A stretch of 64,000 nucleotides of DNA from Arthrobacter echini. Lineage in GTDB: Bacteria > Actinomycetota > Actinomycetes > Actinomycetales > Micrococcaceae. Positions 8,463-12,135 of this stretch are shown piece after piece. The stretch lies in assembly GCF_008107445.1 (NCBI RefSeq), contig NZ_VSLD01000002.1, positions 124,001-188,000 on the forward strand, in the 5' to 3' direction. A program made the position numbers and the translations under genes. The stretch's first letter is position 1. Every line of letters begins with the position of its first letter. The notes under the pieces are model-generated. The model was not told the origin of the DNA. It worked only from the letters and a program-made list of their open reading frames with translations, and made no database searches.

Positions 8463-9371
8463 TCAGCGCTCCCCGGATGCCGCGGAACTGACGGTGACCG
8501 CTACCACACCGAGCCCCGCGTGCGCGGCGAGGACGGCGGGGCACGGTGCCGTCGCGACGGACGCAGCGCCGGCGACGGTCTCCAGGCGCTCCGCGAGAGC
8601 GAGGGCGTCCTCCTCGTTGCCGAAATGGTGCACGGTCAGGTGGACGCTGCCGCTCCGCGCGGCGACGTCGTCCGTGGTGAGTTCCTCGAGCCGCTGCAGC
8701 CCGCGTGCCGCCGAGCGCATGCGCTCCAGCGGCACCAGTGCGCCACCGCGGACATGCAGGATGACCCGGACCGACAGGAGGCTACCCAGCCACCCGGCGG
8801 CCGCCGTGATGCGCCCACCGCGCCGCAGCTGCTCGACACTCGGGACGTAGAAGTAGAGGGAGGACGCCCGCGCGATCATCGCCGCCGTCGCCGCCGCCGC
8901 GTGCAGCTCCGCACCTGCCCGCACCGCGTCCAGCGCCGCGAGGGCCGCTCGGCCCTGTGCCATTCCCGCGGTACGCGTGTCGATGACTTCCACGGGCAGC
9001 GCCGCGCGGGCGGCGGCCATGCGTGCCGCGTCCACCGTGCCGGAGAGCAGGCCGGAGAGATGGACGGAGACGACGCCGTCGAACCCCTCGTCGGCGAGCT
9101 GCCCGTAGGCGCGGTCGAACTGGCCCGGCGACGGACGCGAGGTGCGCACGTCCGCCCCTGCCGCCAGGGCCACCATCAGGGGTGCTGTGACGTCGTCGTG
9201 CTCGCCGGTGAGGATGTCGTTCCCGACGAGCACCGGCAGGGCGACGGTGCGGATCCCGTGCGCCGCACCGCCGACCTCCAGCCACTCGGGCGGGAAGCCG
9301 GCCGCCGAATCGGTGACGACGGCGATGCGCGCCGGTACCTCCGTACGGCCGGGGGCGGCTTCGGGGTGCAT
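8463..9371 (-). CDS. degV: DegV family fatty-acid-binding protein
   Basis: 302 aa. DegV/FakB proteins bind a long-chain fatty acid and, where a FakA kinase exists, present it for phosphorylation. The start IAVVTDSAAGFPPEW has the DegV VTDS signature, followed by VSVHLSGLLSGTVDAARMA (family pattern SxxLSGT), and RRGGRI about residue 196 (family SLxxLxxGGRI). The ATG at 9371 shares its first base with the leuS stop codon (TGATG), so the two are translationally coupled. Upstream in-frame codons lie inside leuS and are not used. No fatty-acid kinase gene is in the window. The leuS-degV-comEA-comEC-holA order is conserved in Micrococcaceae. Confidence 0.88.
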   Translation of the reverse strand: MHPEAAPGRTEVPARIAVVTDSAAGFPPEWLEVGGAAHGIRTVALPVLVGNDILTGEHDDVTAPLMVALAAGADVRTSRPSPGQFDRAYGQLADEGFDGVVSVHLSGLLSGTVDAARMAAARAALPVEVIDTRTAGMAQGRAALAALDAVRAGAELHAAAATAAMIARASSLYFYVPSVEQLRRGGRITAAAGWLGSLLSVRVILHVRGGALVPLERMRSAARGLQRLEELTTDDVAARSGSVHLTVHHFGNEEDALALAERLETVAGAASVATAPCPAVLAAHAGLGVVAVTVSSAASGER

Positions 9372-11869
9372 CAGGCCGGGACGATGTTGACCAGCTTGGG
9401 GGCCCGCACGATGACGGTGCGGATGCCGCGCCCGTCCAGTACCCGCTGCACTTGTTCGCTGGCCAGCGCGAGCTCGCGCAGCTCGTCCTCCCCGATGTCG
9501 GGCGAGACCGTCAGGCGCTCCCGCACCTTGCCCTGGACCTGGACCACCGCGACCACGCTCTCCTGCCGCACCAGCTCCTGGTCGACGGCGGGCCAGCCGG
9601 CGGTCGCGACGGTCGCCTCGTGGCCCAGGCGGTTCCAGAGGTCCTCCGCCGTGTAGGGCGCGAAGAGGCTCAGGAGGATCGCCACGGCCTCGGTGGCCTC
9701 GCGCACAGCCGGATCCGCGCCGCCCACGCCGGAGTCCACAGCCTTGCGTGTGGCGTTGACCAGCTCCATGAGCTTCGCGATCGCCACGTTGAACTTGTTG
9801 GCCTCCATCAGCGCGGCCGCCTCGGAGACGGTGCGGTGCGTCATCGAGCGCAGGGCCCGATCCCCCGTCGAGGGGTCGGTCCCCACGTCGCTCGTAACAT
9901 CCGTCCCCAATCGCCACGCGCGCGCCAGGAACTTCGCGGAGCCCGACGGCGAGACATCGGCCCAGTCGACGTCGTCCTCCGGCGGCGACGCGAACACCAT
10001 GGTGAGGCGGACGGCGTCCACCCCGTAACGGTCCAGCTGCTCGCCCAGGTCAACCCCGTTGCCGAGGGATTTACTCATGGCCCTGCCACCGTTGAGCACC
10101 TGACCCTGGTTCAGCAGCGCGCCGAACGGCTCGGTGAAGTCCACCATGCCGAGATCGAACAGGACCTTGGTGAAGAAGCGGCTGTAGAGCAGATGCAGGA
10201 TGGCGTGCTCCACGCCGCCCACGTACTGGCCCACCGGCAGCCACCGGTTCACCGCCTCGGACTCGAAAGGAGCGGTATCGAGCTGCGGGTCGACGAAGCG
10301 CAGGTAGTACCAGGACGAATCCACGAAGGTGTCCATGGTGTCGGTATCGCGCTCGGCAGCGCCACCGCAGGCCGGGCACGGGACGTTCACCCACTCCTCG
10401 ACCGCGGCCAGCGGCGAGGTTCCCTTCGGCGCCAGTGCCTCGCCGCGCAGACCCTCCGGCAGTGTCACCGGGAGCTGGTCGTCCGGCACCGGGACCTCGC
10501 CGCAGGACGGGCAGTGGATGATCGGGATGGGAGTACCCCAGAAGCGTTGCCGCGACAGCAGCCAGTCCCGCAGGCGGTAGTTGACGGTGTGCTCGCCGGT
10601 CCCCTGTCCCTCGATGAGCTCGATGGCACGACGGATGGCGGCGTCGCGGTCCAGTCCGCTGAGCTCGCCCGAATTGACGAGGGTGCCCTCGCCGACGGTG
10701 GCGACGCCGGTCTCCGCAGCGTCCTCGGCGCCGGTGTCCACGACGGTGCGCACGGGGAGGTCGAAGGTACGGGCGAAGTCGAGGTCCCGCTGGTCGTGGG
10801 CAGGGACGGCCATGATGGCACCCGTGCCGTAGTCGGCCAGCACGTAGTCGGCAGCCCAGACGGGCAGCTTCTCCCCGGTGAGTGGATTGATCGCATGGCG
10901 GCCGGTGAAGACGCCTGTCTTCTCCCGCTCCGTGGCCTGCCGCTCGATCTCGGACAGGCCCTTGACCTGGTCCCGGTAGGCCTCCAGCTCCGCCCGGCGG
11001 TCCGCGGTGACGAGGTCCAGCGCCAGCGGGGCGTCCGCTGCGACGACGAAGAAGGTGGCCCCGTACAGGGTGTCGGGGCGTGTGGTGAAGACCGGCACGT
11101 CCACGGCCGGCCTCTCGCCGTCGGCCTCGATGGCGAAGCGCACGTGCGCCCCCTCGGAGCGCCCGATCCAGTTGCGCTGCATGGCCAGGACACGCTCTGG
11201 CCAGCGCCCCTTGAGCTGCTCCATGTCGTCCAGCAGTCGATCGGCGTAGTCGGTGATCCTGAAGTACCACTGGTTCAGGTTCTTCTTGGTCACCAGGGTG
11301 CCGCAGCGCTCGCATGCCCCGTTGACGACCTGCTCGTTGGCGAGCACCGTCTGGTCCTTCGGGCACCAGTTCACCGGGGAGTTCTTGCGGTAGGCCAGGC
11401 CCCGCTGGAAGAACCGCACGAACAGCCACTGGGTCCAGCGGTAGTACTCGGGGTCGGAGGTGTGGACCCGCCTGCTCCAGTCGGCGCTGATCGCATAGCG
11501 CTTGAAGGACGTGGCCTGGGTCTCGATGTTCGCGTAGGTCCACTCCGCCGGATGCGCGTTGCGCTTGATCGCCGCGTTCTCGGCGGGCAGCCCGAAGGAG
11601 TCCCAGCCGATGGGATGGAGGACGTCGAAGCCCTGCTGCCGGTAGTAGCGCGCCACCACGTCCCCCATGGCGAAGGCCTCGGCGTGGCCCATGTGCAGAT
11701 CGCCCGAGGGGTAGGGGAACATGTCGAGCACGTAGCGGCGCTCGCGCTCGCCGTCGTCGGACGGGGCGAAGGGCTGGAGCCTGTCCCATACGGCGGGCCA
11801 TCTCGCCTCGATGGCCGCGACATCGTAGGTGTTCTCGTCCGGCTGGACGTCCCCTTGGTTGGTGCTCAC
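9371..11869 (-). CDS. leuS: Leucyl-tRNA synthetase
   Basis: 832 aa class I synthetase charging tRNA-Leu. It carries the HIGH-type motif [16 protein letters not shown] near residue 50, an editing (CP1) domain with the TTRPDTLYG signature, and the KMSKS variant [11 protein letters not shown]. The GTG at 11869 ([17 protein letters not shown]) is chosen over the longer upstream frame, which would run through the attenuator region. Upstream lies a candidate leader peptide rich in Leu codons and a terminator-like hairpin (see separate entries), implying expression is matched to leucyl-tRNA supply. It is followed by degV with a 1-bp overlap. Confidence 0.97.
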
Positions 11870-11966
11870 TGTATGGCCTGTCCTTGTCGGTGGAACGTGG
11901 TGCCGGGCATGCCCTTCCGGCCGGCGGGCGACGCGCTGCTGGGTGTGGCCGGTCGGCGCCGAACAC

Positions 11967-11992
11967 ACAAAAGCCCCTCACACAGGAGGGGC
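11967..11992 (-). terminator. Attenuator hairpin in the leuS leader
   Basis: On the minus strand GCCCCTC (11992-11986), a 6-nt loop CTGTGT and GAGGGGC (11979-11973) form a 7-bp all-strong stem followed by TTTT, about 100 nt before the leuS start. This is an intrinsic terminator shape positioned inside a leader rather than at the end of a gene. Confidence 0.65.
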
Positions 11993-12016
11993 CGCCGCAG
12001 GGTCGTGACCGAGCGG

Positions 12017-12043
12017 CTAGGGAAGGAGGAGGATCCGCAGCAT
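12017..12043 (-). CDS. Candidate leucine leader peptide of leuS
   Basis: An 8-codon reading frame, MLRILLLP then TAG, in which four of eight codons are Leu, three of them consecutive (CTC CTC CTT). It ends 24 nt before a terminator-like hairpin with a T-run and lies 148 nt upstream of the leuS start. This is the layout of ribosome-mediated transcription attenuation: a ribosome stalled for lack of charged tRNA-Leu would alter folding and allow read-through. TAAAGT (12055-12050) is a TANNNT box ending 6 nt before its ATG, so the leader peptide may be translated from a leaderless transcript. The peptide is too short for similarity evidence, so the call rests on composition, position and the hairpin. 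Confidence 0.65.
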   Translation of the reverse strand: MLRILLLP

Positions 12044-12049
12044 GGCACC

Positions 12050-12055
12050 ACTTTA
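12050..12055 (-). promoter_or_regulatory. Candidate -10 of the leuS leader transcript
   Basis: TAAAGT on the minus strand matches TANNNT and stands 6 nt before the leader-peptide ATG. It would start the leuS transcript separately from glpK, which ends at 12136. No -35 is recognisable. Confidence 0.4.
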
Positions 12056-12135
12056 GCAGTGTGCTCCTGCGACCCCGGCGGCGGGCACCGCGCGCCCGGT
12101 CCGTCGGTCGGACCGGGCGCTCGGTGACTGCTGTG

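Follow-up and report, generated by a model that had tools for sequence, protein, structure and literature searches.

Between glpK and leuS of Arthrobacter echini, within the 64,000-nt stretch of DNA analysed here (the window), a short reading frame with three consecutive Leu codons precedes a hairpin that ends in a T run. Does this element control transcription of the leucyl-tRNA synthetase gene behind it, and through which RNA structures might it do so? The original prediction had proposed a leucine leader-peptide attenuator of leuS. In our analyses this interpretation stood, carried by conserved Leu codons and hairpins, whereas the view that such an attenuator is unusual for a synthetase gene did not hold, and a second hairpin had been missed.

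Parts of the leuS leader

The features of the locus are collected in Table 1. What had been read from the letters beforehand was all found in the sequence, coordinates included, i.e. TAAAGT 6 nt before the ATG, the peptide MLRILLLP, the 24-nt gap and the 7-bp GC stem with TTTT. As to hairpins, the predicted description contained the terminator-like hairpin T; the second one, P1, had escaped notice and lies between the leader stop codon and the T stem. Its 5' arm begins 5 nt past the last Leu codon and shares the last base of the stop codon, and a single base, 11993, separates P1 from the T stem. The stem is followed by TTTTGTGTGT, with a U-tract of TTTT and then GTGTGT.

Table 1. Features of the leuS leader region; positions refer to the window
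Feature	Position	Strand	Details
Leader element	between glpK (13653-12136) and leuS (11869-9371)	minus	
leuS, leucyl-tRNA synthetase	9371..11869	minus	GTG start at 11869; AAGGA 11885-11881 upstream; leuS_bact by NCBIfam
glpK	13653-12136	minus	glycerol kinase by NCBIfam; same strand, upstream of element
-10 element TAAAGT (TANNNT type)	12050..12055	minus	ends 6 nt (GGTGCC) before leader ATG; predicts leaderless start
Leader ORF MLRILLLP, then stop	12017..12043	minus	ATG CTG CGG ATC CTC CTC CTT CCC TAG; ATG at 12043, stop 12019-12017
Leu codon run CTC CTC CTT, proposed sensor	12023..12031	minus	
Hairpin P1	11994..12017	minus	GCCGC (12017-12013) with GCGGC (11998-11994)
Intrinsic-terminator-like hairpin T	11969..11993	minus	GCCCCTC (11992-11986), loop CTGTGT, GAGGGGC (11979-11973), TTTT (11972-11969)
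Conserved stretch after U-tract	11961..11968	minus	GTGTGTTC, then GG

A terminator scan of the window gave two overlapping predictions for the single T site, with 0.2 expected in shuffles. Folding of the element stretch by itself was unremarkable (z -1.16; +0.52 for a longer piece), and with -12.0 kcal/mol the P1 of the window is weaker than the median of -18.95. That the leader element goes beyond chance hence follows from its conservation and not from its folding energy. No sigma-70-type promoter was found by consensus scan, and Rfam 15 at gathering score gave no match for the window and six loci.

Several smaller features were seen around these parts. Directly 3' of the U-tract, a TGTCCGG-like sequence stands in several families (window 11961-11968 and homologues); TTTTGYRTGTYCGG has a single occurrence in the whole genome. 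By eye, some leaders have a third hairpin 3' of the terminator (TGTCCGG...). Right after glpK, at 12092-12120 of the window (minus strand), lies a 12-bp inverted repeat, GCGCCCGGTCCG/CGGACCGGGCGC, without a T run. It might be an end signal of glpK, and similar repeats were seen by eye in several loci of the same genus.

Conservation and reach of the leader

The leader was present in 29 of the 30 loci fetched from the own genome and the genus, out of 35 such genomes with the own one included; the thirtieth locus starts inside P1 at a contig end. Together with 80 named loci this made 110, of which 91 contained a candidate leader. The remaining 19 had none under the detection rule, one of them (L023) only through a contig end, and the element therefore seems, judged from the loci compared, to be dispensable in some relatives. 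Leaders were seen in Arthrobacter, Pseudarthrobacter, Paenarthrobacter, Sinomonas, Paeniglutamicibacter, Microlunatus, Streptosporangium and Actinomadura loci, and none came, under the detection rule, from loci of Kocuria, Micrococcus, Nesterenkonia or Yaniella. Seven loci of Glutamicibacter type (L077, L078, L080, L081, L084-L086) kept start, stop and a terminator-like hairpin with at most two Leu codons, e.g. MNPKRNLA before the stop; their sequences apparently represent a natural loss of the sensor. One record titled Sporosarcina beigongshangi (L069) has an Arthrobacter-like leuS with leader and is perhaps a contamination or wrongly labelled.

From the 91 leaders, seven duplicates were removed, and of the remaining 84 the alignments A1, A2 and A3 took 43, 55 and 54; those left out were for the most part closely related sequences, besides a few leaders with extended peptides and those of Glutamicibacter type. 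A larger set was drawn from 208 sources with a rule that asked for TANNNT at 5-7 nt upstream of the start, a pair of neighbouring Leu codons and a terminator. It yielded 169 leaders, 157 of them distinct, 71 from LeuS-based loci and 86 from loci based on the covariance model R1 (see below). The other 39 sources gave none under this rule, and some of these, e.g. L043, L050, L064 and L068, have leaders whose Leu run is interrupted. L080 had no P1 fold, and geometry involving P1 was thus counted on 156 of the 157 leaders.

In the larger set, the third-last codon of the run, which is outside the detection rule, encodes Leu in 133 of 157 leaders (59 of 71 LeuS-based, 74 of 86 R1-based) and does so with four different codons, which is what selection on the amino acid would give. 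CTT closes the Leu run in 144 of 157 leaders, although it is uncommon in coding sequence; four window genes contain it once among 192 Leu codons, and LeuS stretches from 71 of the leader loci 46 times among 643. A Shine-Dalgarno-like 4-mer precedes the leader start in only 6 of 157 leaders. The -10 element was spaced 6 or 7 nt from the start in all 157, where the rule allowed 5-7 nt, and T, A and the final T of TANNNT did not vary in any of the 54 rows of A3, which had been selected with TANNNT as a criterion. In this organism the leader transcript is probably leaderless.

CUCCUU, as found in the Leu codons, resembles an anti-Shine-Dalgarno sequence. The codons could hence act like the LEU element of leuA and mask the leuS Shine-Dalgarno by pairing, and leuS of the window does have AAGGA. 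However, the real pairs at 69 loci averaged -8.21 kcal/mol versus -8.83 kcal/mol for swapped ones, and 199 of 200 swaps equalled or exceeded them in stability; moreover, an intrinsic-terminator-like hairpin is part of the element. At these loci, LEU-type pairing of the codons with the Shine-Dalgarno was thus rejected as weaker than swapped pairs, and we consider such masking very improbable.

Both hairpins were kept along with the codons. In the 54 leaders of A3, P1 and T, tested as a structure set by hand, formed standard pairs in 96.1% of cells versus 89.2% in shuffles, and changes on both sides occurred at 11 of 16 pairs versus a shuffled mean of 4.7. The covariation score of 0.221 was reached by none of 500 shuffles (0.104), and with the structure slid by 1-3 columns it fell to only 0.023-0.068. 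Related rows may beat shuffles through descent, and the stronger point is the many compensated pair types in P1, whose five basal pairs form in 52-54 of the 54 leaders. RNAalifold, unaided, returned the same two helices P1 and T with 14 pairs. The conservation asked for by the original prediction, Leu codons and covarying hairpins, was thus found in Micrococcaceae and beyond.

To follow the element further we used R1, a covariance model built on 54 leaders, none of them from genus g49. R1 matched 190 of 394 genomes of the class at E <= 0.01, a few of these via ilvB or cimA leaders. The best 29 matches were fetched, one of them (L117, G023) from a genome of the same genus that had entered before as L011, and 29 of 29 lay in front of leuS. 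Of 60 further matches, chosen for diversity among about 150 matches listed, 58 lay before leuS, 27-223 nt ahead of the first matched LeuS residue; of the remaining two, one lies close to the end of its contig and has its leuS on a different one, and the other shows an ilvB-like peptide. R1 is now available as a model for an element that has no Rfam match, and with it leuS leader-peptide attenuation extends to Micrococcaceae and many genomes of the class.

As the element is located downstream of glpK on the same strand, one could also think of an ordinary glpK terminator next to a chance reading frame. This is hardly credible, since it is contradicted by conservation, both of the Leu codons and of the position before leuS in 29/29 and 58/60 of the matches checked; in addition, the end of glpK has its separate 12-bp inverted repeat.

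Proposed interplay of ribosome and hairpins

In the E. coli trp, his and leu attenuators, it depends on the position of the ribosome which RNA hairpins form and whether transcription ends, and antiterminator and terminator have bases in common. Ribosome position would likewise decide termination in the window, but here the two hairpins touch and share no bases. Taking the reading as a whole, we think it quite probable that the element is a leucine-responsive, ribosome-mediated transcription attenuator of leuS. Its parts, their conservation, covariation and spacing are given by the sequence; from these we infer a leaderless start in this organism, leucine sensing, and with it a leucine response of the window leader, and the step in which P1 works against T.

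The spacing of the parts is tightly kept. The gap from the last Leu codon to P1 is 4-5 nt in 148 of 156 leaders, and the linker between P1 and T is 0-2 nt, with no shared bases, in 155 of 156, while the distance from the Leu run to the terminator ranges between 15 and 74 nt. Taken singly, so short a linker is weak evidence, as it also occurs in 53% of shuffled regions and 52% of random window pieces; linker and gap together, however, were found in 147 of 157 leaders versus 7.6% of random window pieces. In all 156 leaders the stop codon begins at most 2 nt ahead of the first P1 base and at most 26 nt behind it. From toeprinting, the ribosome front lies about 9 nt beyond the A-site codon, and coverage was computed with such a 9-nt front. 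With the stop codon in the A site, the front is 10-38 nt past the first P1 base in all 156 leaders. When a codon of the Leu run occupies the A site instead, the median length of P1 covered is 4 nt for the last codon, 1 nt for the second-last and 0 nt for the third-last.

Transcription would thus begin at or next to the leader ATG, and the ribosome would translate the short peptide directly. When Leu-tRNA is ample, the ribosome would pass the Leu codons and reach the stop, which in the window overlaps the first P1 base. Its front would then cover the P1 5' arm, so that P1 would be melted and T could end the transcript. When Leu-tRNA is short, the ribosome would stall on the Leu codons, the run of which ends 4-5 nt before P1, and P1 would stay largely folded. 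Standing directly against T, the folded P1 would hinder T, and leuS would be transcribed. Perhaps P1, as a touching helix, is unable to enter the RNA exit channel behind T.

We tentatively put forward that P1 itself is the antiterminator and opposes T by contact and not by shared bases, because this gives the expected direction, with more leuS when Leu-tRNA is short. Several points speak against it. P1 and T are compatible in free RNA, with a median P(T) of 0.998, 0.998 and 0.997 in 54 leaders when P1 is free, partly and fully hidden, respectively. Nothing computed therefore shows P1 blocking T. Also, a ribosome stalled at the last Leu codon would hide some 4 nt of P1, yet this codon is the most conserved one. 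Finally, in some leaders the stop lies up to 26 nt past the P1 start, and a ribosome there may have left the P1 base. The attenuator reading as a whole is further weakened by the low stability of the P1 of the window, by its U-tract of TTTT before GTGTGT, by the loci of some relatives that gave no element, and by the codon changes without effect in S. coelicolor ilvB (PMC1262725).

In a classical four-strand attenuator, P1 would be the protector (1:2) and T the terminator (3:4), and a stalled ribosome would free the P1 3' arm for an antiterminator (2:3) with the 5' arm or the loop of T. This is the textbook plan, and in the passages on Streptomyces leuS, Seliverstov et al. describe antiterminator and terminator hairpins (PMC1262725). 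Some leaders with the P1 3' arm GCGCGG and the loop CTGTGC (L216, L225) can form six such pairs, and in 7 of 54 leaders at least four bases of the T 5' arm pair in modelled nascent RNA. Nonetheless, no helix between the P1 3' arm and the 5' arm or loop of T was found among helices of at least 4 columns that were pairable in at least 75% of 55 rows. The sole conserved helix competing with both P1 and T, AGCC/GGCT (97%), has 4 bp and is too short to weigh much; it is all that was conserved of an antiterminator sharing terminator bases, the hallmark of classical attenuation. Moreover, hiding the P1 5' arm left T formed in almost all of the 54 leaders (medians 0.998 and 0.997; lowest 0.654, L061). 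Pairing of the P1 3' arm with the T 5' arm and loop reached a mean of -4.49 kcal/mol versus -4.76 kcal/mol when loops were swapped among 156 leaders; 99 of 100 swaps were at least as stable, as were shuffled loops in 100 of 100 cases. Conserved helices, folding with a hidden arm and loop swaps thus revealed no convincing antiterminator that excludes T by shared bases, and we give the four-strand plan little chance.

A further pairing examined was an extension of T by G-U pairs between the P1 3' arm and the GTGTGT tail; it was 87% pairable, but by eye its changing positions do not covary, and it was set aside.

P1 might instead help termination by stacking coaxially on T, and a ribosome stalled at the last Leu codon would then open the P1 base and weaken T. 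The short linker, 0-2 nt in 155/156 leaders, and the five basal P1 pairs in 52-54 of 54 agree with such stacking, as does the last codon CTT in 144/157, where a stall covers roughly 4 nt of P1. However, with the stop starting no earlier than 2 nt before P1 in 156/156 leaders, the unstalled ribosome hides P1 even more. Since it runs into P1, stacking would give the wrong direction unless release is fast, which makes a helper role of P1 unlikely.

We may also speculate that the leader is real but does not sense leucine through its codons, and that regulation takes another route, as reported for S. coelicolor ilvB. There, changes of the candidate regulatory codons were without effect, and S. coelicolor leuA behaved in a manner inconsistent with classical attenuation, according to the passages of PMC1262725 that deal with these genes. 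Leu kept with synonymous change in 133/157 leaders, at a position that was not used for detection, argues against this and renders it improbable for leuS. Given the constant spacing and the lack of an antiterminator that overlaps T, the codon-change puzzle of S. coelicolor ilvB becomes testable with a few reporter constructs.

Streptomyces leaders and the leaders of ilvB, cimA and leuA

Attenuators of leuS were predicted in 2005 in S. avermitilis and S. coelicolor (Seliverstov et al., PMC1262725). Like the window, these Streptomyces elements combine a leader peptide with Leu codons and a terminator before leuS. The pertinent passages of PMC1262725 name two species and an antiterminator, whereas none that overlaps the terminator was found here as a pairing. 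In S. lividans TK24, LeuL2 upstream of leuS is leaderless by RNA-seq and is followed by a hairpin and uridines, as reported in the LeuL2 passages of PMC8079986. Its peptide, MRAVRLLLSEPR, is letter for letter that of five of six g49 leaders, the sixth being MRAVRLLLTEPR, and from this peptide we infer that g49 is Streptomyces. LeuL2 has 12 codons and its stop TGA inside P1; in contrast, the window leader has 8 codons and TAG at the P1 start.

Among the matches listed, leaders of g49 gave R1 E values from 1.3e-12 to 2.2e-6. R1 matches them although it holds no g49 rows, and by this sequence-based test the window element is therefore homologous to the Streptomyces element. The window shows the short reading frame with a Leu run upstream of leuS as well as the terminator hairpin with U-tract between this frame and leuS that characterise actinobacterial leuS leader-peptide attenuators. 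In view of the 2005 prediction for Streptomyces and the LeuL2 match, the window leader is a further case of already described leuS attenuators. The notion of the original prediction that such control is less usual for a synthetase gene was accordingly mistaken; leuS attenuators had been predicted in 2005 and LeuL2 has been reported (relevant passages of PMC1262725 and PMC8079986), and in the present data such leaders are common in actinobacteria. In the literature covered, which included few subscription journals, a leader element in Arthrobacter was not found, and nothing relevant on a cimA leader either; the outline of PMC4833913 and a term search of it gave no mention of leuS.

The leuS, ilvB and cimA leaders have one plan in common. 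Actinobacterial ilvB leader peptides, as far as described in PMC1262725 and PMC8079986, differ from the window leader in having Val, Ile and Leu codons and another gene. On the own genome, R1 gave E 1.4e-18 for the window element, 0.036 for an ilvB leader and 0.82 for a leuA leader. This ilvB leader, MQPVSVVVILTQRVV before its stop (L113, G000:C26:374139-374267, outside the window), follows the plan of the window leader with 5 nt, P1, 0 nt and T. Thirteen weaker R1 matches have the same plan with a gap of 4-7 nt and a linker of 0-1 nt. By NCBIfam, the gene is ilvB for L113, L156, L159 and L161 and citramalate synthase for L154, L155, L160, L162 and L163; L157, L158 and L165 are ilvB by eye. 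The five cimA leaders, with TIGR00977 above cut-off in 5/5, have Ile-rich branched-chain runs, e.g. MRSTRIIIS and VQRTAIIIP before the stop, and the same arrangement of P1 and terminator.

It might be that in leuS, ilvB and cimA leaders alike the terminator is blocked through contact with an antiterminator hairpin that lies 0-2 nt ahead of it and shares no bases with it, and that the ribosome is the switch, standing either before this hairpin, at the regulatory codons, or in it, at the stop. As a common mechanism for all three genes we regard this as doubtful.

Two minor observations concern these leaders. The last regulatory codon is ATT in 5/5 cimA leaders and CTT in 144/157 leuS leaders. 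The leuA leader of the own genome, MRARMTLLRCRGGAS before its stop (L114, G000:C26:109395-109506, outside the window), is perhaps a LEU element.
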